DNA of 64,000 nt from Tabrizicola flagellatus. Lineage in GTDB: Bacteria > Pseudomonadota > Alphaproteobacteria > Rhodobacterales > Rhodobacteraceae. The notes beneath the pieces were generated by a model. The model saw only the letters and a program-made list of their open reading frames with translations, was not told the origin of the DNA and did not search any database. The stretch covers positions 248,001 to 312,000 of the forward strand of contig NZ_VMDU01000003.1 in NCBI RefSeq assembly GCF_008271465.1. The letters run 5' to 3'. Positions 1,539-49,652 of this stretch are shown here, in pieces. Position 1 is the first letter of the stretch. Each line of letters opens with the position of its first letter. The position numbers and the translations under genes were made by a program.

Positions 1539-1541
1539 GTC

Positions 1542-7133: not shown

Positions 7134-7202
7134 GGGAGAAAGCCTAGGTTTCCGGTGCAGGAGTGACAACCGGCTCTTGCACGTCCGGCGGCGTCCTCCG
7201 GC

Positions 7203-7994
7203 TCAGGGGGCGGGGCAGCCCCGGACCTCGACCGCGCTGCCGGCGGCCAGGATGGTCATGGTGATCTGGGATCGGTCCAGCGCGAAGGGGGCACCGCTCG
7301 GGGGGACAAGCTCGGTGATCGAGACCAGCTCGCCGCCCCGGCGCTCGGTGACGGCCTCTGCCACCCAGACATCGCGGTCGGCGGTCTCGAAGGCGACCAC
7401 CTCGGGAAGTCCCGGATCGGGCAGCCCCACACGCGCAGTGATGCGCAGGCCGTCCGCGATCGGGTCGATGCTGCAGGCAACGCGGGTCACGCCTGCCTCC
7501 TGAGCCGTCGCCGCGCGTCGGGCAAGGGCCGCCCGGATCGCGTCGTCCGGCGCGCCGGGCGCCGTCAGTTCGGAGCCGAGCTCGACGGTGGCGGGCATGC
7601 AGATTTCGTCGCAGACACCCAGATCCATCCTCACGCGCAGCCGGATCGGACGGGCAGGATCTTCGGGGGTGACCTCGACCGGCAGCACCAGTCGGTCGTG
7701 ATAGCCGATGGTCTGCATCCTGTTGACCTGAAACACATCTGGTGCCGGCCAGTGCAAGCGCACCGACCTTACGTTCTCGGACCCCGACCAGTCGAAGCTG
7801 GGCGGAATCCCGGCATCGCCGGGGCTGCGCCAGTAGGTCTTCCAGCCGGGCGCGAGCCGCAGGTCCAGCCCAGCCATGCGCCCGCCATTTTCTGTCTGCC
7901 ATCCGGGAATCAGCGCGACCGACAACACATCGTCCTGCGTGGTCGCAAGGGCGGGGGCAGCAAGGCAGGTGAGGAGGAGGACAGATCGGATCAT
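7203..7994 (-). CDS. Periplasmic DsbD-alpha-like domain protein
   Basis: A 263-residue protein beginning with a clear signal peptide (MIRSVLLLTCLAAPALA). The mature part is like the N-terminal domain of the disulfide reductase DsbD. It contains the cysteine pair LGVCDEICMPATVEL, with C-x-x-x-C spacing as in the DsbD N-terminal domain, plus C near residue 185 and the C-terminal RGCPAP. It lacks the membrane and thioredoxin parts of full DsbD, so it probably exchanges electrons with a separate CcdA/DsbD-like membrane partner. The start is chosen because the signal peptide begins there; longer frames upstream have no family character. Confidence 0.85.
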   Translation of the reverse strand: MIRSVLLLTCLAAPALATTQDDVLSVALIPGWQTENGGRMAGLDLRLAPGWKTYWRSPGDAGIPPSFDWSGSENVRSVRLHWPAPDVFQVNRMQTIGYHDRLVLPVEVTPEDPARPIRLRVRMDLGVCDEICMPATVELGSELTAPGAPDDAIRAALARRAATAQEAGVTRVACSIDPIADGLRITARVGLPDPGLPEVVAFETADRDVWVAEAVTERRGGELVSITELVPPSGAPFALDRSQITMTILAAGSAVEVRGCPAP

Positions 7995-8133
7995 GCCGCG
8001 AAGATAGGAATAGCGGGGCGCGATGGAAATCACTTTGCGGCGAAGGCGCGTGATCGTGGCCTTCCGGCCATGGTCGGGGCTTGTCCCCCAAGGCTCGCAG
8101 GGCCATGTTCTGATCAGGGGAATGGGGGTGCCG

Positions 8134-8691
8134 ATGGACCTTTCCGGACAGATCCTGATCGCGATGCCAGGCATGGCGGACCCGCGGTTCGAGAAAAGCG
8201 TTGTTCTTATTTGCGCCCATTCGGCCGAGGGGGCGATGGGGTTGATCGTCAACAAGCCCCTGGAAGACCTGAGCTTTTCCGGGCTGCTGGAGCATCTTGG
8301 CATCCCCCTTGCGCCTGCAGGCCGCGACATCCGGGTGCATTTCGGCGGGCCGGTGGAGCGGGGGCGGGGGTTTGTCCTGCACTCCGCCGACTGGCGTCCC
8401 CCGGGCGAGGGCACGATGGCCGTGCCGGGGGGGCTGGAGATGACGGCGACGATCAACGTGCTGGAGGCTTTGGCGAGCGGAGGGGGGCCGGGTAAGGCCT
8501 TGCTGGCGCTGGGGTATTCCGGCTGGGGGCCGGGTCAGCTGGAGGCCGAGATCGCGCGGAACGACTGGCTGACTTGTGAGGCTCCGGACGGGCTGGTGTT
8601 CGCGCCGGATGACGGCGGGAAGTGGTCGGCGGCGCTGCGGGGGATGGGGATTGATCCCTTGACCCTGAGCGCGGCGGCGGGGCGGGCTTAG
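8134..8691 (+). CDS. YqgE/AlgH family protein
   Basis: Widely conserved single-domain protein (185 residues from this start), often annotated as a putative transcriptional regulator, although its biochemical role is unsettled. It begins MDLSGQILIAMPGM, exactly like the E. coli protein, and continues with SAEGAMGLIVNKPLEDL and HFGGPVERGRGFVLH. The start at 8134 is preceded by a GGGGG stretch and fits the family; an in-frame ATG at 8122 would add four residues. It is divergent from the DsbD-alpha-like gene across about 140 bases. Confidence 0.9.
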   Translation: MDLSGQILIAMPGMADPRFEKSVVLICAHSAEGAMGLIVNKPLEDLSFSGLLEHLGIPLAPAGRDIRVHFGGPVERGRGFVLHSADWRPPGEGTMAVPGGLEMTATINVLEALASGGGPGKALLALGYSGWGPGQLEAEIARNDWLTCEAPDGLVFAPDDGGKWSAALRGMGIDPLTLSAAAGRA

Positions 8692-8937
8692 GGCCGCAAG
8701 AGACTCAGCTAAGGGGTTGGGAACGCTGGGTTAATCCGGGGGATTTCAGGGAGGTTAACGGTCTGGCATCCGTCTGGCATGCGTCGGGTTTCCGTCCCGA
8801 CGGTTTGCGGGCGGGTGGGGCGTTAACCTTGGGGGACGAATCGCGTGTGGCTGGCCGGGGCGGTGCGCTGTAGCGCACCCTACGATGCGGGAGATGTTGG
8901 TTACTGGGCGTTAAGGTTTGGCCGCTAGCTTTCGGTC
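8692..8937. other. Intergenic region with one REP unit
   Basis: 246 bases between AlgH and the transposase. No coding potential was seen. It contains a TTAAC-bearing AT-richer patch (about 8729-8830) and a single REP hairpin at 8862-8883 that lies about 55 bases before the transposase start. Confidence 0.6.
8862..8883 (-). repeat. REP unit 1 (single)
   Basis: A perfect hairpin, GGTGCGCT-GT-AGCGCACC, followed by CTAC. Read on the minus strand this is the conserved GTAG tetranucleotide directly 5' of the hairpin, the arrangement recognised by RAYT transposases in other bacteria. It sits upstream of the RAYT gene. Confidence 0.8.
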
Positions 8938-9411
8938 ATGTCCAGCTATCTTCGCCCCAGAGTTCCCGGAGCTTCGGTCTTTCTCACGGTCACCCTTGCA
9001 GAGCGCGGCACCAATCTGCTCGTGCGTGAGATTGAAGCCTTGCGCCATGCGGTTCGTGTCACGCGTCTCAAGCGACCATTCCGGATAGATGCCTGGGTCG
9101 TGCTGCCGGATCACATGCATTGCGTCTGGACCTTGCCGGAGGGTGATGCCGATTACGGTGGGAGGATAGGCCAGATCAAGGCGACGTTCTCAAAGGCGTT
9201 ACCGGAAGGGCGATTGCGGTCAAGCCACATCCTGCGGCGGGAGAAGGGTATCTGGCAGCGGCGTTTCTGGGAGCATCATGTCAGGGGCGAGCAGGATTTC
9301 TCGGCCTGCGTTCACTATTGCTGGACCAATCCGGTGAAGCATGGGTTGGTCCAGGATGTTCGGGATTGGCCCTATTCGTCGTGGCATCGCGATGTCGGTG
9401 CGGCAGCGTAG
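8938..9411 (+). CDS. REP-associated tyrosine transposase (RAYT)
   Basis: HUH-superfamily Y1 nuclease of 157 residues, related to IS200/IS605 transposases but usually single copy and tied to REP sequences. The metal-binding HxH is LPDHMHCVW (H59, H61) and the catalytic tyrosine is Y127 in HYCWTNPVKHGLV. IWQRRFWEHHVRG and WPYSSWH complete the family pattern. REP hairpins flank it (8862-8883 and 9408-9458). The stop codon TAG at 9409-9411 is itself part of the GTAG of the downstream REP. Known RAYTs bind and cut such REPs; that this one acts on these copies is inference from position and GTAG spacing. Confidence 0.92.
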   Translation: MSSYLRPRVPGASVFLTVTLAERGTNLLVREIEALRHAVRVTRLKRPFRIDAWVVLPDHMHCVWTLPEGDADYGGRIGQIKATFSKALPEGRLRSSHILRREKGIWQRRFWEHHVRGEQDFSACVHYCWTNPVKHGLVQDVRDWPYSSWHRDVGAAA

Positions 9412-34259: not shown

Positions 34260-34904
34260 ATGACGCGGACGGTCCTGCTTTTCGGCGACAGCAACACGCA
34301 TGGCACGATGCCGATGCCGGACCTGGGCGCGGGCGGGCGCTTTTCCCGCGAAGAGCGCTGGGCGGGACGGCTGGCCAGGCTGCTTCCCGACTGGGAGGTT
34401 ATCGCCGAGGGCCATCCGGGCCGCACGACCGTGCATGACGACCCGGTGGAAGGCGCGCACCGCAACGGGCTGACGGTGCTGCCCGCGCTTCTGGAAAGCC
34501 ACAGGCCGATCGACGTCGTGCTGGTCATGCTGGGCACAAATGACCTGAAGGAGCGGTTCTCGGTCAATGCCAGCGACATCGCGCTCTCGCTGGAGAGGCT
34601 GGTGCGGCTGATCCGGGCCTCGGACTGCGGGCCCGGAGGCAAGGCCCCGGGCGTGCTGCTGGTCGCGCCGCCGCCGATCGTCGAGGTCGGGTGCCTTGCG
34701 GGGATGTTCGCCGGCGGGGCGGCGAAGTCGCAGGCGCTGGCGTCCGAGGTGGCGGCAGCGGCACGGCGCGCCGGCGTGCCGTTCCTGGATGCGGGGCAGG
34801 TGGTCAGGGTCTCGCCCATCGACGGGATCCACTACGACGCCGAGGCGAACCCGGCGCTGGCCGAGGCCTTCGCTGCGGCGATCCGGGCGCATTTCCCCGC
34901 CTGA
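34260..34904 (+). CDS. SGNH/GDSL-family hydrolase
   Basis: 214-residue esterase-like protein with no signal peptide. Catalytic serine in FGDSNTHG (residue 11), GTND (about 99-102) and D-G-I-H-Y at the end as the Asp-His pair. It resembles the arylesterase/7-ACA acetylesterase branch of SGNH hydrolases. A clear AAGGAGGCGCAG ribosome site precedes the ATG at 34260. Followed closely by a Rieske oxygenase gene, which may use or release the same compound; the substrate is not known. Confidence 0.9.
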   Translation: MTRTVLLFGDSNTHGTMPMPDLGAGGRFSREERWAGRLARLLPDWEVIAEGHPGRTTVHDDPVEGAHRNGLTVLPALLESHRPIDVVLVMLGTNDLKERFSVNASDIALSLERLVRLIRASDCGPGGKAPGVLLVAPPPIVEVGCLAGMFAGGAAKSQALASEVAAAARRAGVPFLDAGQVVRVSPIDGIHYDAEANPALAEAFAAAIRAHFPA

Positions 34905-34969
34905 GGGGCGCATTTCCGCTGGAAGTCGCGGCCCCGGGGCGGCAGAGAGGGGGGCAGGAGGCCAGACCG

Positions 34970-36100
34970 ATGACCCAGCACGATCCCTCGCTTGCCATTG
35001 CCGAATTGCGCGCCAATGTCGCGGTCCCGTTCGAGCGCGCGCGGGCGATGCCGAAATCCGTTTATACTTCGGAGGCCTTCGCCAAGGCCGAAGAGACGCA
35101 TATCTTCGCGAAGGAATGGCTCTGTGCGGGGCGGGCGGATGCGTTGCCGAACCCCGGCGACTACCTGACCATGGTGATCGCGGGCGAGCCGGTCATCATC
35201 CTGCGCGACCGCGAGGGGGTCTTGCGGGGGATGTCCAACGTCTGCCGCCACCGGATGAGCACTCTGCTGGAGGGCCGGGGGAACGTGCGGTCGATCGTCT
35301 GCCCCTATCATGCCTGGACCTACAACCTGGACGGATCCTTGCGCGGGGCGCCGGCGATGGCGCGGAACGAGGGGTTCTGCAAGGAGGACGTGAGGCTGCC
35401 CGCCATAAGGGTCGAGGACTGGCAGGGCTGGATCATGGTGACGCTGAACCCCGATGCGCCGCCGGTGGCCGAGCAGCTGAGCGGCGTGGACCGGCTGGTG
35501 GGCCATCTGCGGATGCAGGATTACCGCGAGGCCTTCCGCGAGGAATTCCGCTGGAACACCAACTGGAAGGTGCTGGCCGAGAATTTCATGGAAAGCTATC
35601 ACCTGCCGGTCTGCCATGCCGGCACCATCGGCGGGTCCTGCGACCTTAACCTGATGGAATGCCCGCCGGGGGAAGAGGCGTTCAACTACCACTGGATCGT
35701 GAAGAACGACGCGGTGCCGCTGGCGCTGGCGCATCCGTCGAACACGGTCTTGCAGGGCGATGACCGGCGGATCACCTGGCTTCTGGCGATCTATCCGGCG
35801 CTGCTGATCACGCTGACGCCGGGGTATTTCTGGTATCTGTCCCTGACCCCGGATGGTCCGGGCGCGGTCCGGGTGCTGTTCGGCGGCGGGATGAGCGCGG
35901 AGTGGGTGGCCGACCCCGAAGCCCCGGCGCATCTGGCGGCGGTGAAGGCGCTGCTCGATGACGTCAATGTCGAGGACAAGGGCTGCGTCGAGCGGGTCTG
36001 GAAGGGGCTGTGCGCGGGCCTGTCGGAACCCGGCGCGCTGAGCCATCTGGAGCGGCCGAACTACGATTTCGCCCGTTACATCGCCAGCCGGATGCCCTGA
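34970..36100 (+). CDS. Rieske non-heme iron oxygenase, alpha subunit
   Basis: 376-residue oxygenase. Rieske cluster ligands are C92-x-H94 and C111-x2-H114 (VCRHRMSTLL; VCPYHAWTYN). The mononuclear iron ligands are H211 and H216 in ENFMESYHLPVCHAG, with E208 beside them. It resembles the betaine/stachydrine/carnitine demethylase branch (GbcA, Stc2, CntA) more than aromatic dioxygenases. No reductase gene is adjacent, so electrons must come from elsewhere. It follows the SGNH hydrolase by 65 bases and precedes the CbiX-like gene. Confidence 0.92.
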   Translation: MTQHDPSLAIAELRANVAVPFERARAMPKSVYTSEAFAKAEETHIFAKEWLCAGRADALPNPGDYLTMVIAGEPVIILRDREGVLRGMSNVCRHRMSTLLEGRGNVRSIVCPYHAWTYNLDGSLRGAPAMARNEGFCKEDVRLPAIRVEDWQGWIMVTLNPDAPPVAEQLSGVDRLVGHLRMQDYREAFREEFRWNTNWKVLAENFMESYHLPVCHAGTIGGSCDLNLMECPPGEEAFNYHWIVKNDAVPLALAHPSNTVLQGDDRRITWLLAIYPALLITLTPGYFWYLSLTPDGPGAVRVLFGGGMSAEWVADPEAPAHLAAVKALLDDVNVEDKGCVERVWKGLCAGLSEPGALSHLERPNYDFARYIASRMP

Positions 36101-36897: not shown

Positions 36898-38286
36898 TCA
36901 GACCGTGTGCAGGTAGAGGTCGAAGTCCACCTCGCTGACAGTCCGCATCACGCGGGCATATTCGGCGGCCATGATCGCGGTGAAGGTGCGGTGCATGTCC
37001 TCGCCCAGGGCGTCCTTCAGGAAGGCCGACCGTTTCGCGGCGTCGATGGCCGCCTTCCAGTCGGTCGGGATGCCGGAGGCATCCTCGTCGGCATAGCCGT
37101 TGCCGGTGGTTTCCGGGCCGGGGTCGATCCGTTCATTCAATCCCTTGCGGATACCGGCCAGGACCGTTGCGGCCACGAGATAGGGGTTCGCGTCCACGCC
37201 GGCGGGGCGGTGTTCGATCCTCCGGGCCTTGATGTCGCCGGCCGGGATCCGCAGCGCAACCGAGCGGTTGTTGACGCCCCAGGTGGGGCTGACCGGCGCG
37301 TAGGACTGGCTGGCGAACCGCCGCCAGGAGTTCGCGTGCGGGGCAAAGACCAGCATGCTTTCGCCCATCGTCGCCTTCAGCCCGCCAAGCGCATGCAGGA
37401 TGGTCGGGTTCCACTTGCCCTCTTCCTTCTCGACGAACACGTTGCGGCCCGTGTCGTCCAGCAGCGAGACGTGGAAGTGCATGCCGGAGCCGGCGTAGTT
37501 CTCGTTCGGCTTTGCCATGAAGCAGGCGACGACGCCGTGCGCCCGGGCCTGCGCCCGGACGATGCGCTTCAGCCGCATCAGGTCGTCGGCGGCCTGCATC
37601 ACATCGGTGCGGTAGTGCAGCGTCAGTTCATACTGGCCGGGGGCGTATTCGGAAATGAGCGTCTCGGCCTTGATCCCTGCCTTCTCTGCGCCTGCGTAGA
37701 TGTCGGAGAAGAGGGGCAGCATCCCGTGCAGGTGATCGACCGAATAGACCTCGGTCTTGGTCGACTTGCGGCGGTCGAGCACGTCGCGGGCGGGTTGCAT
37801 CTTGCCGTCCGGGCCGCGCTCGGGGTCGAGGAGGAAGAATTCCAGCTCGAAGGCGCCCGCGGGATGGAGGCCGTCCTGCGCAAGGAGATCCACCTGGCGT
37901 TGCAGGGCGTGGCGGGGGTCCGAGGTCATCGGCGCGCCGTCGAGCGTGTACATCGACATGAACACCTCGCCGCGCGGGGGCTGGGTGTTGTGCAGGGCCT
38001 TCAGCGTGCCGGGGATCGGCCAGGCGCGCAGGTCGCCGTCGCCCTGATCCCAGATCAGCCCGGTCTCGTGCACGTCCTCGCCGCAGATGTCGAGGCCGAG
38101 GATCGAGATGGGGAGATGGCGGCCGTTGTTGTAAAAAGACAAAAGCTCATGCCGGCGGATGATCTTTCCCCGGCCGATTCCGTTGGTGTCGTGCAGGATA
38201 ATGTCAAAGGCCTCGATTTCCGGATGAGCGGAAAGGAAGGCTTCGGCCTCGGCCGCGGTGGACCCGGAGGGGCTGGTGGAGGTCAT
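36898..38286 (-). CDS. Glutamine synthetase-family ligase (PuuA-like)
   Basis: 462-residue member of the glutamine synthetase superfamily. The beta-grasp start (about 20-110) and catalytic part with GAFELEFFLL (about 143-152), PGQYELTLHY, NYAGSGMHFHVSLL and NRSVALRIPAGD are visible. Proteins of this branch (PuuA, IpuC, GlnT) join glutamate to polyamines or other amines. The adjacent class III aminotransferase (2 bases away) supports amine catabolism. It could not be told from sequence alone whether ammonia or an amine is used. Confidence 0.9.
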   Translation of the reverse strand: MTSTSPSGSTAAEAEAFLSAHPEIEAFDIILHDTNGIGRGKIIRRHELLSFYNNGRHLPISILGLDICGEDVHETGLIWDQGDGDLRAWPIPGTLKALHNTQPPRGEVFMSMYTLDGAPMTSDPRHALQRQVDLLAQDGLHPAGAFELEFFLLDPERGPDGKMQPARDVLDRRKSTKTEVYSVDHLHGMLPLFSDIYAGAEKAGIKAETLISEYAPGQYELTLHYRTDVMQAADDLMRLKRIVRAQARAHGVVACFMAKPNENYAGSGMHFHVSLLDDTGRNVFVEKEEGKWNPTILHALGGLKATMGESMLVFAPHANSWRRFASQSYAPVSPTWGVNNRSVALRIPAGDIKARRIEHRPAGVDANPYLVAATVLAGIRKGLNERIDPGPETTGNGYADEDASGIPTDWKAAIDAAKRSAFLKDALGEDMHRTFTAIMAAEYARVMRTVSEVDFDLYLHTV

Positions 38287-38288
38287 TT

Positions 38289-39662
38289 TCAGGCTGCTTT
38301 GAAAAGATCGGTCAGGATGGTGTCGAAGTTTGCGATCAGCCTGTCAACCTGGCGTTTCCGGGTCGCGGGGCTGATGAGCATCATGTTGTGGAAGGGGGCG
38401 ATCAGCGTACCGCGGTTGATGAGGGCGGTGTGGATCGCGGCCTCGACCCGGGGCTGGTGGGCATATCCGGCCTCGGTCCCGTTGCGGAGAGGGCCGGGGG
38501 CGCAGATGAATTCCACCCGCGCGCCGACGCGGACGACGTGCCAGGGGGCCTTGTGCCGCTCGATCGCCTTGCGCAGACCGGCGGAGAGGCGTTCGGCCAG
38601 TTTCTCCATATGGGCATAGTTTTCGGGGGTCATCACCTCGGACAGGGTGGCGACGAGGCAGGCGAACTGCATCGGGTTCGCGGAGAGCGTCGTGCCCATG
38701 CCGGTGCGGCCGGGCTCGCGTTTCGCATCCGCCTCCTCGTACCGCTTCGCGGTCTCGTCGGTCAGGCCCCAGACGGCGGTCGGCATCCCGCCCGCCACGC
38801 ATTTGCCGACGACGAAGATGTCGGGGCGCAGCGAATGGACGCGGGTATAGCCGCCGAGACCGGACGAGATGGTATGCGTCTCGTCCATGATGAGGAGCGC
38901 GCCGTATTTGCGGGAAAGCTGGCGGAGGCCGTCGTGGAAGCCGGCTTGCGGCAGGACCATGCAGGAGTTGGTCATCACCGGCTCGGTCAGGATCGCGGCG
39001 ACATCGCCCTTGGCAAGCGCGGCCTCGACCCCGGCGAGGTCGTTGAACTCGCAGGCGACGGCGGTCTGCGACAGGTCGTTGACCTGGCCGAGGAGCCCCG
39101 GCGCGTTCACCGTGCGGCCGTTCTCGAGGACGACGAAGGTGTCGTCCACCGTGCCGTGGTAGCAGCCGTTGAACACCAGCACCTTCGGCCGCCCGGTGAT
39201 CGCCCTGGCGACGCGCAGGGCAAAGCGGTTGGCATCGGTCGCGGTGGTGGCGATCTGCCAGCGGAAGGGGCCGAAGCGTTCGGTGAGGAGGCGCCCGGCC
39301 TCGAGCGCGGTTTCGGTCGGCAGCATATAGGTCAGGCCGCGGCGGGCCTGGTGGCGGATGGCGCGGGCCACCGGCGGCGGGGAATGGCCGAACATGGACC
39401 CGGTGTCGCCGAGACAGAAGTCGTCGAGCGCGACGCCGTCGATGTCCTCGATCCGCGCGCCATGGGCCTTTGCGACCAGCGGCAGGTGCGGCATCGGCCA
39501 GTCGGACATCCAGTGCATCGGCACGCCGCCGAGAAAGACCCCGGCGCCCTTCTCCAGCGCCTTCGCGGCCTTCGGGCGGGCCTTGGCGTAGGTTTCGGCC
39601 TCGCGCGCGGCGAAGGCGGCCAGGCGGTCAGAGGAAATTCCGGCGATGGTTTCGGCAGACAT
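38289..39662 (-). CDS. Class III PLP-dependent aminotransferase
   Basis: 457-residue fold-type I aminotransferase, related to glutamate-1-semialdehyde aminomutase and omega-amino acid transaminases. The PLP lysine is in FVVGKCVAGG, and ILTEPVMTN and LLIMDETHT form the cofactor pocket (Asp-Glu). FNGCYHGTVDDTFV is the ring-facing motif. It is followed after 2 bases by the PuuA-like ligase, so the two work in one pathway, probably breakdown of an amine. Start at 39662 (MSAETIAGISSD) is chosen on family grounds. Confidence 0.88.
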   Translation of the reverse strand: MSAETIAGISSDRLAAFAAREAETYAKARPKAAKALEKGAGVFLGGVPMHWMSDWPMPHLPLVAKAHGARIEDIDGVALDDFCLGDTGSMFGHSPPPVARAIRHQARRGLTYMLPTETALEAGRLLTERFGPFRWQIATTATDANRFALRVARAITGRPKVLVFNGCYHGTVDDTFVVLENGRTVNAPGLLGQVNDLSQTAVACEFNDLAGVEAALAKGDVAAILTEPVMTNSCMVLPQAGFHDGLRQLSRKYGALLIMDETHTISSGLGGYTRVHSLRPDIFVVGKCVAGGMPTAVWGLTDETAKRYEEADAKREPGRTGMGTTLSANPMQFACLVATLSEVMTPENYAHMEKLAERLSAGLRKAIERHKAPWHVVRVGARVEFICAPGPLRNGTEAGYAHQPRVEAAIHTALINRGTLIAPFHNMMLISPATRKRQVDRLIANFDTILTDLFKAA

Positions 39663-39726
39663 GACAGGCGGGCCCCGGGACAGATTGCGCTGTTTATGCC
39701 GGAATTTGATCAAATAGCAAGCAGCT

Positions 39727-39795
39727 GCTCCTCGTGCGCCTTCGGCTTCTCGTCGTGGCATGGGCAGGCGAGGAGTGGCGAAGCCATCGACGAGC
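39727..39795 (+). repeat. 67-base dispersed hairpin repeat, copy C
   Basis: GCTCCTCGTGCGCCTTCGGC .. GAGGAGTGGCGAAGCCATCG, between the LldD-like gene end and the aminotransferase gene start. Same layout as copies A, B and D, with a differing stem. Confidence 0.65.
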
Positions 39796-39802
39796 GGCGC
39801 GA

Positions 39803-40966
39803 TCAGGCCCAGCGGCCCTCGAAATCCTCGGGCACGAGGAGGTTGTGGCGGCCCATCGCCTTGACGTCCTTCTCGCCGCACAGCGCCATGGTGATGTCCA
39901 TCTCCTTCTGGATCACTTCCAGCGCCTTGGTCACCCCTGCCTCGCCCATGGCGCCGAGGCCGTGGATGTAGGCCCGGCCGATCATCGTGCCCTTCGCCCC
40001 CAGTGCCAGCGCCTTCAGCACGTCCTGGCCCGAGCGGATGCCGCTGTCGAGCCAGACCTCGGTCCGGTCGCCGATGGCGCGGACGATGGAGGGCAGCATG
40101 CGGATCGAGGAGAGCGCGCCGTCCAGTTGCCGCCCGCCGTGGTTCGAGACGATCACGGCGTCGGCGCCGAGATCGGCGGCCAGCCGCGCGTCGTCGGGGT
40201 CGAGCACGCCCTTGAGGATGAACTTGCCCTTCCACTGGTCGCGGATGCGGGCGACCTTCTGCCAGTCGAGCTGCGGATCGAACTGTTCGTTGGCCCAGGC
40301 GGTCAGATCGGCCAGCTTGGTGACACCCTTCACATGGCCGACGATGTTGCGGAACTGGCGGCGCGGGGTTTTCAGCATCCCCAGCGACCAGCGCGGTTTC
40401 ATCGCCATGTTGACGAGGTTCGGGATCGTGGGTCTGGGCGGGCTGGTCAGGCCGTTCTTCAGGTCCTTGTGGCGCTGGCCGAGGATCTGCAGGTCCAGCG
40501 TCAGCACCAGCGCCGAGCATTTCGCCGCCCGCGCGCGTTCGATGATCGCATCGACGAAATCCTCGTCCTTCATGACGTAAAGCTGGAACCAGAAGGGCTC
40601 CGGGCTATGGGCCGCCACGTCCTCGATCGAACAGATCGACATGGTGGACAGCGTGAAGGGCACGCCGAACTTCGCCGCGGCGCGGGCGGCGTGGATTTCC
40701 CCGTCGGGGTGCTGCATGCCGGTCGAGCCGACCGGTGCAAGGGCAACCGGCATCGTGACCTTCTGCCCGGCCATGGTGCTTTCCAGCACGCGGTTGGTCA
40801 GGTCGCGCGCGACGCGCTGGCGAAAGCGCAGGCGCGCGAAGTCCGAGGTGTTCTCGCGGAAGGTCTGTTCGGTGTAGCTGCCGCTTTCGCAGTAATCCCA
40901 GAACATCTTCGGCGTGCGCTTGCGGTGCAGCCGCTTGAGATCCTCGATGCAGGTGATGACGGGCAT
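39803..40966 (-). CDS. lldD: FMN-dependent alpha-hydroxy acid dehydrogenase (LldD-like)
   Basis: 387-residue flavoenzyme of the L-lactate dehydrogenase/glycolate oxidase family, which turns 2-hydroxy acids to 2-oxo acids. VSNHGGRQLDG carries the catalytic histidine-arginine block, and FILKGVLDPDDARLAADLGA and WLDSGIRSGQDVLKALALGA bind FMN. A GGGAGGCGCCC ribosome-site stretch precedes the ATG at 40966 (MPVITCIEDLK). Substrate is lactate-like but unproved. A dispersed repeat follows. Confidence 0.92.
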   Translation of the reverse strand: MPVITCIEDLKRLHRKRTPKMFWDYCESGSYTEQTFRENTSDFARLRFRQRVARDLTNRVLESTMAGQKVTMPVALAPVGSTGMQHPDGEIHAARAAAKFGVPFTLSTMSICSIEDVAAHSPEPFWFQLYVMKDEDFVDAIIERARAAKCSALVLTLDLQILGQRHKDLKNGLTSPPRPTIPNLVNMAMKPRWSLGMLKTPRRQFRNIVGHVKGVTKLADLTAWANEQFDPQLDWQKVARIRDQWKGKFILKGVLDPDDARLAADLGADAVIVSNHGGRQLDGALSSIRMLPSIVRAIGDRTEVWLDSGIRSGQDVLKALALGAKGTMIGRAYIHGLGAMGEAGVTKALEVIQKEMDITMALCGEKDVKAMGRHNLLVPEDFEGRWA

Positions 40967-41029
40967 GGGCGCCTCCCGGGATTGGTCAGATCGTGTTACC
41001 AATCTCCGGGGGGTGCGGCAAGTCCCGGC

Positions 41030-43135: not shown

Positions 43136-43741
43136 CTAGACGCCGGCGGGGTTGTCCACCTCGCCGCCCATTTCCTTCAGGTCCTGGTAGCGGTCGCCGA
43201 TCCGGTGGTGCGGGCGGCCTCCGAGGCTTGCGCCGAGGGCGATGACGAGTTCGTCAGGACCCGGCGCATCGGGGACGGAGAACTGGATGGTCAGGTAATG
43301 CGAGCGGCGGCCCGCGTCGTGCTTGTCCATCAGCGGGATCTGGATCTGCGTATTGGCCGGCCCCCGCGTGTTGGTGAAGCCGAGGTAGGTCTTGGCCCCC
43401 ACCGCCTCGCGGTAGAAATTGCCGAAGCGGAGGGTGTGGATCAGGGCCGAGCAGTGTTCCAGCTCGCAGGACGTACCGCAGAGCGCGGCCTTGCCGTAGG
43501 CCTCGATCCTGTCGCCCCCGCCCGCGAGGCGGACCAGGCGGTCGGTCAGGAGTTGGCCGAGGGCGGGGCCCATGCGCCTGATCTCGGGCGAGAGGTCTTC
43601 CACGAAGCCGCGCCCATGCCACGGGTTCGTCACCACGGCGGCGACGGCGATCATCCGCAGGGGGGGCGTGCAGGCGCGGCCGCCGTCGGTGATGGTGTCC
43701 TCGTCATAGGTGACAAGCTTGCGGAGTTCGGGAAGCGACAT
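43136..43741 (-). CDS. Amino acid synthesis family protein (AA_synth/DUF1185)
   Basis: 201-residue protein starting MSLPELRKLVTYDEDTITDG, the typical opening of the AA_synth family, with AYGKAALCGTSCELEHCSAL in the middle (three cysteines close together) and GGRPHHRIGDRYQDLKEMGG near the end. Despite the family name its function is unproven. It lies last in a run of RidA-like, alpha/beta hydrolase and flavin reductase genes, 13 bases after the reductase, so it probably serves that pathway. Confidence 0.82.
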   Translation of the reverse strand: MSLPELRKLVTYDEDTITDGGRACTPPLRMIAVAAVVTNPWHGRGFVEDLSPEIRRMGPALGQLLTDRLVRLAGGGDRIEAYGKAALCGTSCELEHCSALIHTLRFGNFYREAVGAKTYLGFTNTRGPANTQIQIPLMDKHDAGRRSHYLTIQFSVPDAPGPDELVIALGASLGGRPHHRIGDRYQDLKEMGGEVDNPAGV

Positions 43742-43754
43742 CGGGGGTCCTTTC

Positions 43755-44675
43755 TTACAGCGCGCCGATCTGGCGGGTTTGGCCCGTGGTTTCGGTGCCG
43801 TGATAGATCGAGAAGCTGCCGTTGCGGTAGTCCTGCGCATAGCGGGCCAGCATGGCGGCTTCGGCGGGGTTGGTGATCTGCGCCTGGGCGAGGTCGGCCA
43901 GCGGCAGGATGCGGTAGCCTTGCGGAAGGGCGCCGGTGACGGTGCCGTGGTAATAGACCGCGTGGCCGCCGGTGGAGCGGTCGTCGAAGGTGGCGTAGAC
44001 AAAGTCGATCTGCGGTTGCAGGCCGAGGGCCGTGAGTTTGGCCGTCAGGCTGTCGAGGGTGGGTTGCGGGGCGAGGGGGAGGCGGAGCTGGTCGCCTTCG
44101 GCTTTCAGAAGCACCCCGCCGTCGCAGGCAAGGACGGCCCCGAGGCGGCTGCCTTTCGCGGCGGCGGCGGCTTCGGCGAGGTCCTTCTCGATCCCGATGG
44201 AGAAGTAGTTTCCCCGGAAATAGCCGAGCGGTTGGCCTTCTGAGGCCGAGAAGGCCTCGATCCGGCCGATCAGGATCAGGTGGTCGCCCGCATCGACAAG
44301 CTGGTGGCGCGCTGCGGTGAAGCTGGCCAGCGCGCCGTCGATCAGGGGCATGTCGGCGGGGCCGGGCGTCCAGGCGCATTGGGCGAACTTGTCGGGCGCG
44401 CGGGAGGCGAAGAGGCCGGAGACGGCTTTCTGGTCCTCGGCCAGGATGTTGACGGCGAAATGGGGGGCGTTTGCGAAGGTGTCGGCGGAATGCGCGGTCT
44501 TGGCGAGGCAGACGAGGAGGAGCGGTGGGTCGAGCGAGACGGAGGTGAAGCTGTTGGCGGTGAAGCCGCGGGGCGTGCCGTCGGGTTGGCGGGTGGTGAC
44601 GACGGTGACGCCGGTCGCAAAGGCACCGAAGGCGTTGCGCAAGGCTTTCGGGTCGAGGGTCTGGGGGTCGGTCAC
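43755..44675 (-). CDS. Flavin reductase, RutF-like with C-terminal extension
   Basis: 306-residue protein. Residues 1 to about 165 are a flavin reductase domain (TGVTVVTTRQPDGTPRGFTA, NSFTSVSLDPPLLLVCL, FAVNILAEDQ) that supplies reduced FMN to a partner monooxygenase. About 140 more residues (after IGRIEAFSASEGQPLGYF) form a separate domain of unknown type. Overlaps the hydrolase gene by 4 bases. The partner is very likely the luciferase-type monooxygenase at 47462. Confidence 0.88.
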   Translation of the reverse strand: MTDPQTLDPKALRNAFGAFATGVTVVTTRQPDGTPRGFTANSFTSVSLDPPLLLVCLAKTAHSADTFANAPHFAVNILAEDQKAVSGLFASRAPDKFAQCAWTPGPADMPLIDGALASFTAARHQLVDAGDHLILIGRIEAFSASEGQPLGYFRGNYFSIGIEKDLAEAAAAAKGSRLGAVLACDGGVLLKAEGDQLRLPLAPQPTLDSLTAKLTALGLQPQIDFVYATFDDRSTGGHAVYYHGTVTGALPQGYRILPLADLAQAQITNPAEAAMLARYAQDYRNGSFSIYHGTETTGQTRQIGAL

Positions 44676-45457
44676 AGCAGCACCTCGGTCAGGAAATCGG
44701 CGACGGGGCGGTTGACGGCCGCCGGCGCCTCGGCCAGGGCCATGTGGCGGAGGCCCTTCAGGATCACCAGCCGCGCGCGGGGGATCTCCTCGGCGATGGC
44801 CATGCTCATCTCGGGGCCGTTGCCGGTATCCTCGTCGCCGGTCAGGACGAGGGTCGGGACGGTGAGGGGGGGCTGGGGGGCGACGATCTCGTCCACCCCA
44901 TGCGCGAGGATGCGGTAGAGCTTGACATAGACCTCGCGCTTGTTGGCGAGGACCCAGTGGCGTGTGAGGTCCATCAGGTCGGGACGGGTGGCTTGCGCGG
45001 CCTCGGTATACCAGCGTTGGAGGGCAAGCTCGACTGTGGCCTCGGGGCCTTCGGCTTCGGCCTGGGCGACGCGGTAAAGGATGGCGCCCTGCTGTTTCTC
45101 GGTCCGTTTGTGGGCGGAGTGGAGGACGACGAGCGCCGTGGTGCGGTCGCGGTGATCCTGGGCAAAGCGGCGCGCGACCATGCCGCCGAGCGAGAAGCCG
45201 ACGATGGCGGCCTTTTCGATGCCGAGGTGGTCGAGGAGGGCGGCCAGTTGGTCGGACAGGTCCCTGAGGGTCGGGTCGCCGTCCGGCGGGGCGGTTTCGC
45301 CATGGCCGATCAGGTCATAGGTCAGGACGCGGAATTTCCCGAGGTCGGGGAGCATCCACTGCCAGACGGCGCGGGTGAGGCCGAGGCCGTGGATCAGGAC
45401 GACGACGGGCGCGTCCTCGGGGCCGGTCAGGTCGTAGGCGGTGCCGTTGTGGATCAT
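44672..45457 (-). CDS. Alpha/beta-hydrolase (RutD-like position)
   Basis: 261-residue alpha/beta-hydrolase. Nucleophile motif GFSLGGM, oxyanion HGLGLTRAVW, acid around TGDEDTGNG and histidine LRHMALAEAP, which is a complete triad. It resembles the 3-oxoadipate enol-lactonase branch and is placed like RutD. Substrate unknown. It overlaps the RidA gene by 4 bases and the flavin reductase gene by 4 bases. Confidence 0.9.
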   Translation of the reverse strand: MIHNGTAYDLTGPEDAPVVVLIHGLGLTRAVWQWMLPDLGKFRVLTYDLIGHGETAPPDGDPTLRDLSDQLAALLDHLGIEKAAIVGFSLGGMVARRFAQDHRDRTTALVVLHSAHKRTEKQQGAILYRVAQAEAEGPEATVELALQRWYTEAAQATRPDLMDLTRHWVLANKREVYVKLYRILAHGVDEIVAPQPPLTVPTLVLTGDEDTGNGPEMSMAIAEEIPRARLVILKGLRHMALAEAPAAVNRPVADFLTEVLL

Positions 45458-45834
45458 TGCGGTTTCCAGGCGATGACCTCGACCTCGACCCGGATGTCGA
45501 CGAGGAAGTCGGAGACGAGGGCCGAGCGGGCGGGGGGATGGGTGGGGAAGTAGTCGGCATAGACGGCGTTGAAGCCGGGGAAATCGGCGCGGTCCTTCAG
45601 CCAGACCATCGTCTTCACCACGTCGTCGCGCGTGCAGCCGGCCAGGGCCAGGGTCTCGGTGATCCGGTCGAGGCAGGCGCGGGTCTGGTCCTCGATCGTG
45701 CCGGTGGTGAGGACCTCGCCGCCGACCATCGGGACCTGGCCCGTCAGGAAGACGAAATCGCCCGCGCGGACAGCTTTCGACAGCGAAAGCGTCCGTCCGT
45801 TGATGACCAGGGGTCCGCCGATGATCTCTTTCAT
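45454..45834 (-). CDS. RidA/RutC-family deaminase
   Basis: 126-residue Rid-family protein, which hydrolyses enamine/imine intermediates. It has the RidA signature in ARSALVSDFLVDIRVEVEVI (catalytic Arg) and AGDFVFLTGQVPMVGG. Start at 45834 (MKEIIGGPLV) with GGAGG five bases upstream is preferred to two in-frame codons further upstream. First gene of the minus-strand arm of the divergent cluster. Confidence 0.88.
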   Translation of the reverse strand: MKEIIGGPLVINGRTLSLSKAVRAGDFVFLTGQVPMVGGEVLTTGTIEDQTRACLDRITETLALAGCTRDDVVKTMVWLKDRADFPGFNAVYADYFPTHPPARSALVSDFLVDIRVEVEVIAWKPQ

Positions 45835-45888
45835 GCCGTCCTCCATGGTCCTTGGGTTTGCCATCGGGGCGCGGGGCCGGATTGCGGA

Positions 45889-45911
45889 TTTTCGTCAGAA
45901 AATGACGAAAA
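45889..45911. promoter_or_regulatory. Palindrome in the divergent control region
   Basis: TTTTCGTCA-GAAAA-TGACGAAAA, 9-base arms, in the 135 bases between the RidA gene and the aldehyde dehydrogenase gene. GACGAAAAA recurs about 15-25 bases upstream of the GlxA-type regulator start (around 49665-49673). Candidate operator shared by the cluster and its regulator. Confidence 0.55.
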
Positions 45912-45969
45912 AGCGGAAACATGCGGCATTTGCGCGCGGCATGAACGGGGAAAGGCCACGGAGGACGCG

Positions 45970-47442
45970 ATGGGCGAGATCAAGCGCTGCCGGATGCTGA
46001 TCGACGGGGAATGGGTGGGCGCCTCGGACGGGGGGGTGTTTCCGTCGGTCTCGCCGGTGACGGGGAAGGTCTGGGCCGAGGTGCCGGAGGCGACGGCTGC
46101 GGATGTGGACCGGGCGGTCCGGGCGGCGGACCGGGCTCTGACGGGGCCGTGGGGGGCGATGACGCCCTCGGCGCGCGGCAAGTGCTTGCGGAAGCTGGGG
46201 GATCTCCTGGCCGAGGCGTCGGAGGAGCTGGGGCGGGCCGAGACGCTGGACACCGGCAAGATGCTGAAGGAGACGCGCTGGCAGGCGAAATACATCGCGG
46301 AGTTCTTCCATTTCTATGCCGGGGCGGCGGACAAGATTTCGGGCGAGGTGCTGCCGATCGACAAGCCGGACCTGCTGGTCTTCACCAACCGCGAGCCCCT
46401 GGGGGTGGTGGCGGCGGTGGTGCCCTGGAACTCGCAACTGTTCCTGTCGGCGGTGAAGCTGGGGCCGGCGCTGGCGGCGGGGAATACGGTGGTGCTGAAG
46501 GTCAGCGAACACGCCTCGGTGCCGATGCTGGAGTTCGGGCGGCTGATCGAGGCGGCGGGGTTTCCGGCGGGGGTGGTCAACATCATCAGCGGGCATGGCG
46601 AGGTGGGGCGGGTCCTGACCTCGCATCCGCTGGTCGCGCGCGTTTCGTTCACCGGGGGGCCGGAGACGGCGCGGCATGTGGTGCGGAACTCGGCCGAGAA
46701 TTTCGCGGAGGTGTCGCTGGAGCTGGGGGGCAAGTCGCCCTTCGTGGTCTTCGAGGATGCGGACCTGGAAAGCGCGGTCAACGGCTGCATGGCGGGGATT
46801 TTCGGCGCGACGGGGCAAAGCTGCGTCGCCGGGTCGCGGCTGATCGTGCAGGAGAGCATCTCGGAGGAGTTCCTCAAGCGGCTGGTGGCGGCGGCGAAGG
46901 AGATTCGCATCGGCGATCCCCTGGCGGACGAGACGCAGATGGGGCCGCTGTGCACCGAAGCGCAGGTGCGGCTGATCGAGGCGCAGGTGGCGCAGGCGGT
47001 GACGGAAGGGGCGAAGGTCCTGACCGGGGGGAAGCAGCCCGCGCTGGGGGGGACCTATTACGAGCCGACCATCATCGACTGCCCCTCGCCGGACCTGACC
47101 ATCGTGGATACGGAGCTCTTCGGGCCGGTCCTGTCGGTGCTGCGCTTCAGGGACGAGGCCGAGGCCGTGGCGCTGGCGAACAGGTCGCAGCACGGCCTTG
47201 CGGCGGGGGTCTTCACACGGGACGGGGCGCGGCAGATGCGGGTAGCGAAGGCCATTCGCGCCGGGATCGTCTGGGTCAACACCTACCGCGCGGTGTCGCC
47301 CATCGCGGCCTTCGGCGGCGTCAAGGGATCGGGCTACGGCCGCGAAAGCGGGTTCCAGGCGCTTTACGACTACACGCGGCCCAAGACGATCTGGGTCAAC
47401 ACCTCATCCGAGCCCATCGCCAACCCCTTCGTGATGCGCTGA
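45970..47442 (+). CDS. NAD(P)-dependent aldehyde dehydrogenase
   Basis: 490-residue single-domain ALDH. VVPWNSQLFL, FTGGPETARHVV, SLELGGKSPFVVFEDAD and catalytic FGATGQSCVAGSRL (Cys) are all present. The closest named groups are betaine/gamma-aminobutyraldehyde type. A GGAGG site precedes the ATG at 45970. It is the first gene of the plus-strand arm and 19 bases ahead of the monooxygenase gene. Oxidises an aldehyde intermediate of the pathway. Confidence 0.92.
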   Translation: MGEIKRCRMLIDGEWVGASDGGVFPSVSPVTGKVWAEVPEATAADVDRAVRAADRALTGPWGAMTPSARGKCLRKLGDLLAEASEELGRAETLDTGKMLKETRWQAKYIAEFFHFYAGAADKISGEVLPIDKPDLLVFTNREPLGVVAAVVPWNSQLFLSAVKLGPALAAGNTVVLKVSEHASVPMLEFGRLIEAAGFPAGVVNIISGHGEVGRVLTSHPLVARVSFTGGPETARHVVRNSAENFAEVSLELGGKSPFVVFEDADLESAVNGCMAGIFGATGQSCVAGSRLIVQESISEEFLKRLVAAAKEIRIGDPLADETQMGPLCTEAQVRLIEAQVAQAVTEGAKVLTGGKQPALGGTYYEPTIIDCPSPDLTIVDTELFGPVLSVLRFRDEAEAVALANRSQHGLAAGVFTRDGARQMRVAKAIRAGIVWVNTYRAVSPIAAFGGVKGSGYGRESGFQALYDYTRPKTIWVNTSSEPIANPFVMR

Positions 47443-47461
47443 AATTTCAGGGAGATAGAAG

Positions 47462-48496
47462 ATGAAATTCCACCTCGCCATCAACATGGAGCGGATAGAC
47501 GACACGCTCGACATGAAGGATGTGGCGCGGCACACGCTGGAGATGGTGCAGATGGCCGACGCGGGCGGGTTCCGCATCGCCTGGGCGGCGGAGCATCACG
47601 CGCTGGAGATGACCATCGCGCCGAACCCGTTTTCCATCCTGACCTGGTGGGCCGAGCATACCAATGACATCCGTCTGGGCACGGCGGTGATCGCGGCGCC
47701 TTACTGGCACCCGATCAAGGCGGCGGGGGAGGCGGCGTTCGTCGACCTCATCTCCGGCGGGCGGTTGGAGTTCGGCATCGGCTCCGGCGCCTATCAGCGC
47801 GAGTTCGACCGGATGCGGCCGGGCCTGAAGCAGACCGACGCCTGGCGCTACATGCAGGAGATGCTGCCGGTGATCCGGGAGCTCTGGAAGGGCGACTACG
47901 CGCATGAGGGCGAGCACTGGTCGTTCCCGGCCTCGACCTCCTGCCCGAAGCCCTTGCAGAAGGAGGTCCCGGTCTGGGTCGCGGCCCGCGCGCCGATCAC
48001 CTATGACTATGCGGTCAAGCAGGGCTGCAACATCCAGTCCTGGCCGCTGACCCGCGACATGGGCGAGGCGCGGCTTTACATGGACCGGATGGCCGAGGCG
48101 CTGGCGAACAACCCGGGGAAGAAGCGCCCGATCATGGCGATGATGCGGCACACGGCGCTGTACGACCGGAAGGAGGACTGGATGGTCCCGGTCCGGGCGG
48201 CGCAGCGGCAGCTGTCGCAGTTCGAGAACCTGTTCAAGAACCTGGGCGATGTGGAGAACGGCTTTCCGAAGGCGATCCCCTTCGACCAGCTGGGCAACCG
48301 CGCGGAATATGACCCGGAGATGCTGTCGCGGAACCTGATGTTCGGCACGCCCGACGAGGTGATCGCCAAGCTGAAGGAATACGAGGCGATCGGGGTGGAC
48401 GAGTTCATCTATTATGCCTCCCTCGGCCTGGGGCACAAGGAACAGAAGCGGTCGCTGGAACTGTTCTGCCAGGAGGTCATCCCGGCCTTCGCGTGA
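47462..48496 (+). CDS. Luciferase-like flavin-dependent monooxygenase
   Basis: 344-residue LLM-class oxygenase using reduced FMN from a separate reductase. MADAGGFRIAWAAEHHALEM, IRLGTAVIAAPYWHPI and GRLEFGIGSGAYQREFDRM are typical. Members of this class (RutA, NtaA, DszA) break heterocycles, amines or sulfur compounds. Together with the RidA, hydrolase and reductase genes it makes a Rut-like set, but no RutB-type amidohydrolase is present. The end overlaps the convergent regulator gene by 20 bases. Confidence 0.92.
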   Translation: MKFHLAINMERIDDTLDMKDVARHTLEMVQMADAGGFRIAWAAEHHALEMTIAPNPFSILTWWAEHTNDIRLGTAVIAAPYWHPIKAAGEAAFVDLISGGRLEFGIGSGAYQREFDRMRPGLKQTDAWRYMQEMLPVIRELWKGDYAHEGEHWSFPASTSCPKPLQKEVPVWVAARAPITYDYAVKQGCNIQSWPLTRDMGEARLYMDRMAEALANNPGKKRPIMAMMRHTALYDRKEDWMVPVRAAQRQLSQFENLFKNLGDVENGFPKAIPFDQLGNRAEYDPEMLSRNLMFGTPDEVIAKLKEYEAIGVDEFIYYASLGLGHKEQKRSLELFCQEVIPAFA

Positions 48497-49652
48497 CGGT
48501 CGGCTCGTCGATGACTTCGTCACTCCTCGCGCGGGTTTCCGACGAGGAGACGAAGTCGAACGAGGAGGCCCCGCCCCGGACCGCGCGGGTGGTGCGCTGG
48601 CGCAGCGCCTCGAGATAGGCGGTCAGCGTGCCGGGCCAGGAGGGAGCGGCTTCCGAGGGTGCCCAGCCCTGGCGGTAGTCGCTGGGCCGGCGGTCGAAGC
48701 ATTTGCGGAAGGCGCTGGTGAAGTGCGACAGCGCGTTGAAGCCGGTCGCGGTGGCGATCTCGCGCACCGAAAGCCGGGTCGCGATCAAGAGGACGCGGGC
48801 GTGCTGCAGGCGGACGAGCGTGCCGAACTGCACCACCGAACAGCCGAGCCCGCGCCGGAACTGGCGTTCCAGCTGGCGCTGCGACAGGCCGAGACGGTCG
48901 GCGATCTCGGGCACGGGCAGGGGGTCGGCGATGTTCTTCTCGATCAGCGCGATGGCCCGGCGCAGGATCGGGGCGAAGGCCTCGGTGCCCTCGCCGGGCG
49001 TGCGGCGCTGCGGCCCGGTGGCGGGCCTGATCGGCTGGTGCAGCATCTGGTCGGCGACCTCGCCCGCCATGCCTTCGCCGTGGCGGTCGGCGATCAGGCG
49101 CAGCATCAGGTCGATCCCGGCCGTGCCGCCGGCGCAGGTCAGGATGCCGTCGCCTATGGTGTAGAGCTGTTCCACCACGGCGATCTCCGGGTGGCGTTCC
49201 TGGAACCCCGGCGCCCAGGACCAGTGCGTCGCCACCTGCCGCCCGTTCAGCAACCCTGCCCGCGCCATGGGGTAGGAGCCGAGCTCCACCGCGCAGAGCC
49301 GCGCCCCCTCGCGCGACTGGCGGCGGAGCCAGGCCAGAAGCTCGCGCGCGCCGTAGTCCTCGGCCCCCCACGAGCCGAGCAGGAACACCGTCTCGCCCCG
49401 CCGGTTGCGGTCGTCGAGCGGTGCGGCGGTGATCGACAAGCCGTTCGAGGCCGGCACCTCGGGGCAGTCGGGCGAGAGGATCTCCCACCGGTAGAGGGGG
49501 CGGGAGGCGAGGTAGTTTGCAATGCGCAGCGGCTCGATCAGGGTGATGAGCGTGGCAAGGTTGAAGCGCGGCAGCAGGACGAAGGTCATGCGGTCCGCCC
49601 CGGTGTCCTCGGGCAAGGGGGCAGGGGGCACCAGTATGCGGTTTTTCGCCAT
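48477..49652 (-). CDS. GlxA-type AraC-family regulator
   Basis: 391-residue regulator with an N-terminal DJ-1/PfpI-like domain (about 20-190) and an AraC helix-turn-helix (about 240-345; IADRLGLSQRQLERQFRRGL, FKRKCFDRRPSDY-like second helix). No nitrogen/carbon ligand is evident. Residues about 362-383 (ASSFDFVSSSETRARSDEVI) are read from copy D of a dispersed 67-base repeat, which appears to have replaced or extended the natural C-terminus. It lies next to the divergent catabolic cluster and probably activates it. Confidence 0.88.
   Translation of the reverse strand: MAKNRILVPPAPLPEDTGADRMTFVLLPRFNLATLITLIEPLRIANYLASRPLYRWEILSPDCPEVPASNGLSITAAPLDDRNRRGETVFLLGSWGAEDYGARELLAWLRRQSREGARLCAVELGSYPMARAGLLNGRQVATHWSWAPGFQERHPEIAVVEQLYTIGDGILTCAGGTAGIDLMLRLIADRHGEGMAGEVADQMLHQPIRPATGPQRRTPGEGTEAFAPILRRAIALIEKNIADPLPVPEIADRLGLSQRQLERQFRRGLGCSVVQFGTLVRLQHARVLLIATRLSVREIATATGFNALSHFTSAFRKCFDRRPSDYRQGWAPSEAAPSWPGTLTAYLEALRQRTTRAVRGGASSFDFVSSSETRARSDEVIDEPTVTRRPG
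48503..48569 (-). repeat. 67-base dispersed hairpin repeat, copy D (inside a coding end)
   Basis: On the minus strand: GCCTCCTCGTTCGACTTCGT .. GAGGAGTGACGAAGTCATCG. Stem GACTTCGTC against GACGAAGTC is perfect. It lies inside the regulator reading frame and beside the end of the monooxygenase gene. Confidence 0.7.

Follow-up and report, generated by a model that had tools for sequence, protein, structure and literature searches.

A divergent flavin-oxygenase gene cluster of Tabrizicola flagellatus with kinship to the trigonelline (tgn) operons and a candidate role in betaine catabolism

Among described systems, the locus treated here most resembles the TgnABCDEF pathway of Acinetobacter baylyi, in which Perchat et al. 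reportedly described trigonelline (N-methylnicotinate) degradation in 2018; a two-component flavin oxygenase is said to open N-methylnicotinate, followed by an aldehyde dehydrogenase (ALDH), a hydrolase and a succinate semialdehyde dehydrogenase. It also has superfamilies in common with the Rut system of uracil degradation. The locus is a cluster of seven genes, comprising two divergent arms and a regulator, at 43136-49652 of a 64,000-nucleotide stretch of Tabrizicola flagellatus (GCF_008271465.1, NZ_VMDU01000003.1, 248,001-312,000, forward strand), hereafter the window, whose numbering is used throughout. It is built around a flavin-dependent oxygenase of the luciferase-like monooxygenase (LLM) class. 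An open reading frame check and NCBIfam and Pfam searches confirmed the seven genes, each with the Pfam family that the initial annotation had claimed for it; the refined starts are 43741 (DUF1185), 45457 (alpha/beta-hydrolase) and 45970 (ALDH). The features are as follows.

43136-43741, minus strand: AA_synth/DUF1185 protein (PF06684, TgnF family), 201 amino acids (aa); Pfam 224.1 bits, cut-off 27
43755-44675, minus strand: flavin reductase, 306 aa, with a C-terminal extension of about 140 aa; Flavin_Reduct PF01613, 141.1 bits
44672-45457, minus strand: alpha/beta-hydrolase; Abhydrolase_1, 97 bits
45454-45864, minus strand: RidA-family protein, 136 aa; Ribonuc_L-PSP PF01042, 88.2 bits
45889-45911, no strand: operator-like palindrome TTTTCGTCA-N5-TGACGAAAA, an inter-arm site conserved across loci
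45970-47442, plus strand: betaine-aldehyde-dehydrogenase-like ALDH, 490 aa; Aldedh PF00171, 544.1 bits
47462-48496, plus strand: LLM-class flavin-dependent oxygenase, 344 aa; Bac_luciferase PF00296, 178.5 bits
48477-49652, minus strand: GlxA/GbdR-like AraC-family regulator, 391 aa; HTH_18 PF12833, 83.8 bits

The DUF1185 protein has 2qtp and 3byq as structural relatives. In the reductase PF01613 covers residues 17-160 only, and PDB entry 3rh7, which we take to be the S. meliloti protein SMa0793, covers residues 5-302. The top NCBIfam models for the hydrolase are of the 3-oxoadipate enol-lactonase type, under cut-off, and the RidA protein carries a PPARS motif with Arg113. The ALDH scored 484.2 bits with the betaine aldehyde dehydrogenase model (cut-off 668.6) and the regulator 232.5 bits with the GbdR model (cut-off 480), both in NCBIfam; the LLM exceeded no NCBIfam cut-off among the 25 of 31 matching families listed.

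The DUF1185 gene, which had been taken for a mere addition to a Rut-like set, is the clue to the kinship of the cluster with tgn, since DUF1185 is the TgnF family. According to one report, a DUF1185 protein of coumarin degradation is homologous to TgnF, and TgnF stimulates the TgnE-dependent oxidation of succinate semialdehyde in A. baylyi, no such stimulation having been observed by its authors with the coumarin-pathway protein (PMC7913881). On pSymA of Sinorhizobium meliloti 1021, genes in a single direction encode DUF1185, hydrolase, reductase, LLM, ALDH, NIPSNAP, an ABC transporter and a second ALDH, a few kb from reading frames which, from their sequences alone, we read as nifB, nifA, fixCBA and nifHDK. 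Since a strain without pSymA does not grow on trigonelline (PMC4207669), and since only one locus on pSymA matches this LLM at E 1e-40 or better, this is probably the trigonelline operon. The same five-gene order was found in plasmids of Acinetobacter venetianus and Leisingera caerulea, and the same five families (LLM, flavin reductase, ALDH, hydrolase and DUF1185) stand together in the window cluster.

The initial question whether LLM and reductase cluster with a characterised pathway is thus answered by kinship with tgn, which does not extend to membership of the same oxygenase clade. The LLM was found at E 1e-60 or better in 103 of 394 genomes of the window's family, at 112 places. Of these, 44 (in 39 genomes) are at least 58% identical to it, four 46-49% and 64 37-44%. 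A phylum-wide sample gave a match in 16 of 299 genomes, only the window's own genome exceeding 49%. A quick LLM tree of 95 rows was built with SH-aLRT (Shimodaira-Hasegawa-like approximate likelihood ratio test) support, no bootstrap and one distant outgroup row, after removal of rows more than 88% identical to a kept row and of eight distant or own-genome LLM rows; the locus type labels used below were partly set by hand before the tree (e.g. L074, L139, L190, L191 and L156). The window LLM falls, with the group of at least 58% identity, in a clade of 71 rows (SH-aLRT 100) that also includes relatives from Hyphomicrobiales, gammaproteobacteria and Acidimicrobiales. The tgn-type LLMs, including that of the pSymA operon, form a clade of 15 rows apart from it (SH-aLRT 99), and LLMs from Agrobacterium and Mesorhizobium a clade of six (SH-aLRT 100); two LLMs of Agrobacterium type (L194 and L196) were placed beside the 71-row clade and not in the six-row one. 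The 71 rows have 127 columns that are at least 95% constant; both other clades share 51 of these, and the tgn-type clade has a different fixed residue in 17. By this tree the window clade is separate from the tgn-type clade, as a sister clade, and well supported. We found no description of it in open PubMed Central papers, most subscription papers being uncovered. The label "undescribed" thus stands for the LLM clade, for which no characterised member was found, and not for the kind of pathway, its five-family set being that of tgn.

Gene contexts were counted per locus in the best 80 of 214 relatives (LLM 70-95% identical), with partners sought within about 10 kb; only 40 of these loci have at least 6.5 kb on both sides. 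Beside the LLM we found ALDH in 51 of 80, hydrolase in 48, RidA in 39, DUF1185 in 37, GlxA in 37 and flavin reductase in 34. The five partners other than the regulator are found together in 23 loci, 20 of which also have GlxA. Several loci, mostly of Acidimicrobiales (L075, L077, L079 and L084), have no partner in view. Many relatives add enoyl-CoA hydratase (ECH) and 3-hydroxyacyl-CoA dehydrogenase (HAD) genes (together in 39/80), a beta-keto acid cleavage enzyme (BKACE, 31/80), acyl-CoA dehydrogenase (ACAD, 27/80), acyl-CoA synthetase (ACS, 27/80) and CoA-transferase (20/80). The arrangement is beyond chance, and the expectation of a co-conserved unit distinct from Rut was borne out.

Three layouts recur. 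In type I, DUF1185-reductase-hydrolase-RidA stands opposite ALDH-LLM-ECH-HAD, followed by GlxA and then by BKACE-ABC transporter-ACAD-ACS; type I', that of the window and its Tabrizicola-like relatives, is type I without ECH to ACS; and type II is a single operon, ALDH-LLM-DUF1185-hydrolase, without RidA. Rhodobacter sp. SY28-1 (L027) is an isolate that carries the window's cluster. The LLM is present in 34 of 35 further regions examined (10 of type I, two I', 17 II, two tgn and three of Agrobacterium type). ALDH occurs in 16 of the 17 type II loci, with a short reductase adjacent in nine, a reductase further off in one and none in seven. Type II LLMs (L046, L061, L076 and L133) nest among type I LLMs in the tree; both types therefore probably share one LLM reaction and have exchanged partners. 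Some genomes hold more than one cluster kind (L177 and L200; L184 and L202; L185 and L199; L197 and L198, the last with a further 40% place).

RidA and ALDH are separated by 105 bp, and the 23-base palindrome, a perfect one, lies in this gap. Allowing up to four mismatches in the 16 fixed bases, we found it in 48 of 51 divergent-arm loci (two same-genome pairs, L035/L206 and L081/L202, included), as against 14 of 2,550 gaps with shuffled bases. Since it recurs between the arms in this way, both arms probably share control. Palindrome and GlxA gene are both in view in 41 loci, the gene alone in none, the site alone in seven (four of them on contigs ending within 2 kb) and neither in three (L176, L178 and L201). 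This pairing fits action of the GlxA protein at the palindrome but does not prove it. A scan of 42 whole loci (at most three mismatches, two for the window) gave 31 palindromes: 28 in the inter-arm gap, one elsewhere between genes and two inside genes. None was found before BKACE in these loci, nor any in the 13 scanned loci without an inter-arm gap in view. In the window's own genome, a search with 14 fixed bases and at most two mismatches gave 16 places, against six for a reversed control pattern; one is perfect (the window's) and two have one mismatch. One of these two, at about 7228-7248 of L220, lies between genes whose translations we read as tmm-like (trimethylamine monooxygenase) and amtB-like (ammonium transporter).

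We propose, with a probability of roughly 55%, that the seven genes act together as a single Tgn-like catabolic unit that opens a betaine oxidatively, the betaine perhaps being an N-methylpyridinium carboxylate. The proposal draws on the homology of DUF1185 and TgnF, the shared five-family operons, the link between pSymA and trigonelline, the palindrome common to both arms, and a betaine context: the regulator is GbdR-like (under cut-off), L061 encodes a binding protein of OpuAC type (glycine betaine), and ProXWV genes adjoin more distant LLM relatives. Gene content, co-conservation, the conserved site, clade membership and the kinship with tgn-type operons are observed; the chemical steps, the pairing of regulator and site and the substrate are inferred. 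The LLM oxygenase would receive reduced flavin from the reductase and oxidatively open a zwitterionic betaine-type substrate to an aldehyde; the ALDH would turn this into an acid, the DUF1185 protein would aid an aldehyde step in the manner of TgnF, and the alpha/beta-hydrolase would cleave the product, a formamide or a lactone. RidA, where present, may accelerate hydrolysis of a leftover imine or enamine, and the GlxA regulator would govern both arms via the palindrome. The substrate would most likely be an N-alkylated heteroaromatic carboxylate, e.g. homarine (N-methylpicolinate) or a relative, homarine being a first guess. By chemical reasoning, C5-C6 cleavage of homarine, oxidation and deformylation could leave 2-oxoglutarate as its N-methyl imine, on which RidA could plausibly act. 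Homarine catabolism is reportedly treated by Ferrer-Gonzalez et al. in 2026. Homarine breakdown involves Mgd, according to a paper that cites their work (PMC13390433), and open PubMed Central papers gave no description of homarine catabolic genes, most subscription papers being uncovered.

Several observations weigh against this proposal. At E 1e-3 in tblastn, both reductase and RidA are missing from L065 and from Rhodobacter calidifons (L035), the latter having ychF and a Phn-like flank in common with the window; L028, L032 and L033 lack RidA, and L030 lacks the reductase. In L048 the place of the reductase (1495-1713, minus strand) holds no more than a weak match (30% over 73 aa) to the extension at the C-terminus of that protein. 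All seven of these loci keep DUF1185, hydrolase, ALDH, LLM and GlxA. The palindrome is present in L043, L045 and L183, yet no GlxA gene lies within 9 kb. The carnitine-like ECH and HAD pair of 39 of the 80 relatives is not called for by pyridinium ring opening, and the substrate is not necessarily a pyridinium compound, because the LLM is only 37-44% and the hydrolase only 26-34% like those of tgn type. Given these losses among close relatives, an enamine step is not a fixed part of the pathway, the earlier inference of an enamine from RidA is weak, and the seven genes do not make up a fixed unit.

These losses bear also on the initial view of a Rut-type pathway, opening a pyrimidine or lactam without RutB. 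Four families are shared with Rut (LLM, RidA, hydrolase and flavin reductase), and RutB-type isochorismatases or amidohydrolases were, as noted initially, not found among the seven cluster proteins scanned, the remaining genome not having been searched for RutB; a PhnM-like protein at 52944 lies outside the cluster. No Rut model came close to its cut-off, however: RutC gave 50.8 bits (cut-off 169.1), RutD 74.4 (238.5), RutF 88.4 (254.75; a model of 156 positions, the reductase having 306 aa) and RutA 21 (498.3), and RutA was over cut-off in none of the 21 genomes searched. Close relatives, moreover, lose RidA yet keep DUF1185 and ALDH. We therefore dropped Rut membership; by family models the cluster is not the Rut pathway, and a Rut-type route is very improbable. 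A second trigonelline pathway with the same function as tgn would account for the five common families and for the closeness of the ALDH (54-60% identical) and DUF1185 (59-72%) proteins, but the hydrolases differ, the LLM clades are split by supported branches (SH-aLRT 100 and 99) and 17 LLM columns are fixed differently. One genome carries type I with tgn-type (L177/L200), another type II with tgn-type (L185/L199), and a third type I with type II and the further 40% place (L197, L198); such coexistence suggests different substrates, and we consider redundancy with tgn improbable.

A stronger competitor arises from the carnitine-like genes of the relatives. The LLM may belong to a gamma-butyrobetaine/carnitine-type pathway and oxidise a trimethylammonium or similar compound, with the four-carbon chain handled by the neighbouring ACS, ACAD, ECH, HAD and BKACE, and by a separate module in the window genome. 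In Parasedimentitalea (L020) the ECH scored 305.2 with the crotonobetainyl-CoA hydratase model (cut-off 500) and the HAD 305.5 with the L-carnitine dehydrogenase model (414), both under cut-off. Carnitine dehydrogenase and BKACE are not in the window cluster, the own-genome matches being on other contigs: contig 4 has a carnitine dehydrogenase over cut-off (747.7/592) with relatives of BKACE, ACAD, ACS and ECH, 38-53% identical to the L020 proteins. Near the LLM, at lax criteria (about 30% identity), we found MttB-family genes in 6/80 loci, sarcosine/dimethylglycine-dehydrogenase-like genes in 3/80 and Rieske genes in 7/80, which, like the carnitine-like set, point to a substrate among the quaternary or methylated amines. 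A Rieske oxygenase gene stands between ALDH and LLM in L183, L197 and L208 (two of type I/I', one of type II), the nearest structure for that of L197 being carnitine monooxygenase. In Tabrizicola-like L026 and L031 an MttB-family gene, of trimethylamine methyltransferase-like type, directly follows GlxA (L026: 261.8 bits, cut-off 525). Against a carnitine-type role, the same LLM clade occurs in ALDH-LLM-DUF1185-hydrolase operons without carnitine genes, some of which have LLMs interspersed with the rest of the clade in the tree, and 28 of the 31 palindromes lie between the arms and none before BKACE. We know of no carnitine step that requires the ALDH, hydrolase and DUF1185 set, and we regard this reading as doubtful.

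An equally tentative variant joins the two halves: the LLM clade would open a betaine of a new kind, and in many relatives this step would belong to one pathway with the carnitine-like beta-oxidation set. ACS, ACAD, ECH, HAD and BKACE would shorten a side chain, a CoA-transferase fused to the reductase would pass on CoA, and the LLM would open the resulting betaine acid. The CoA-transferase is one open frame with the flavin reductase in all 20 loci that have it; the L020 fusion (7028-9151, minus strand) has 707 aa, of which residues 401-702 are 54% identical to the window reductase. The joined set spans Rhodobacterales, among them Pseudohalocynthiibacter aestuariivivens (L081), to a Thioglobus metagenome-assembled genome (which is without the fusion), and Acidimicrobiales have the same LLM without most of its partners. 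If true, the joined route would be a so far undescribed catabolism of a quaternary-nitrogen metabolite.

The surroundings of the cluster add three features.

34691-36100, plus strand: frame with a Rieske oxygenase, nearest structure carnitine monooxygenase (E 8.6e-40), the GbcA model being far under cut-off
36898-41002, minus strand: in a row, a glutamine-synthetase-like protein, a transaminase that passes the PRK07046 cut-off and an FMN enzyme of L-lactate-dehydrogenase-like type that passes that of PRK11197
49802-54185, plus strand: phosphonate-type cluster immediately following GlxA, with an ABC transporter like PhnD/PhnC/PhnE, a methyltransferase and a PhnM-like protein

The Rieske gene, 7 kb off with other genes between, was not adopted as a cluster member. 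Nor was the PhnDCE-like transporter adopted as the uptake system, because it leads into PhnM and is kept, among the ten closest loci (L026-L035), only by R. calidifons (L035); such genes lie about 7 kb from the LLM in Alsobacter (L066), and a weakly similar set occurs in L074. Type III glutamine synthetase and glutamate-synthase-like genes serve methylamine assimilation. Both occur side by side in the own genome, where the type III glutamine synthetase passes its cut-off (660.3/469.6), as expected if methylamine were released, though such genes are common in the family.

Betaines are important nitrogen and carbon carriers between algae and bacteria. Because it was found in 39 of 394 family genomes as well as in gammaproteobacteria and Acidimicrobiales, the LLM clade may mark an unrecognised sink for a betaine-type compound. 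It offers a testable set: the LLM clade itself, a regulator whose operator is predicted, and the fusion of reductase and CoA-transferase by which two pathway halves are linked.

Compared with known systems, the cluster shares with Rut the superfamilies LLM, RidA, alpha/beta-hydrolase and flavin reductase but matches no Rut model and is without RutB. The route from gamma-butyrobetaine or carnitine to glycine betaine (Cdh/BKACE) has counterparts near the LLM of many relatives (ECH, HAD, BKACE, ACAD and ACS), whereas the window has none and the own-genome module is on another contig. Homarine catabolism represents a plausible substrate class. Tgn was compared by way of the S. meliloti and A. venetianus operons. 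The window cluster differs from these in its divergent arms, GlxA regulator, palindrome and extra RidA, in having no second ALDH, in an LLM of another clade (37-44% identical) and in its hydrolase (26-34%); it resembles them in its five families and, across window-type and tgn-type operons, in the ALDH and DUF1185 identities given above.

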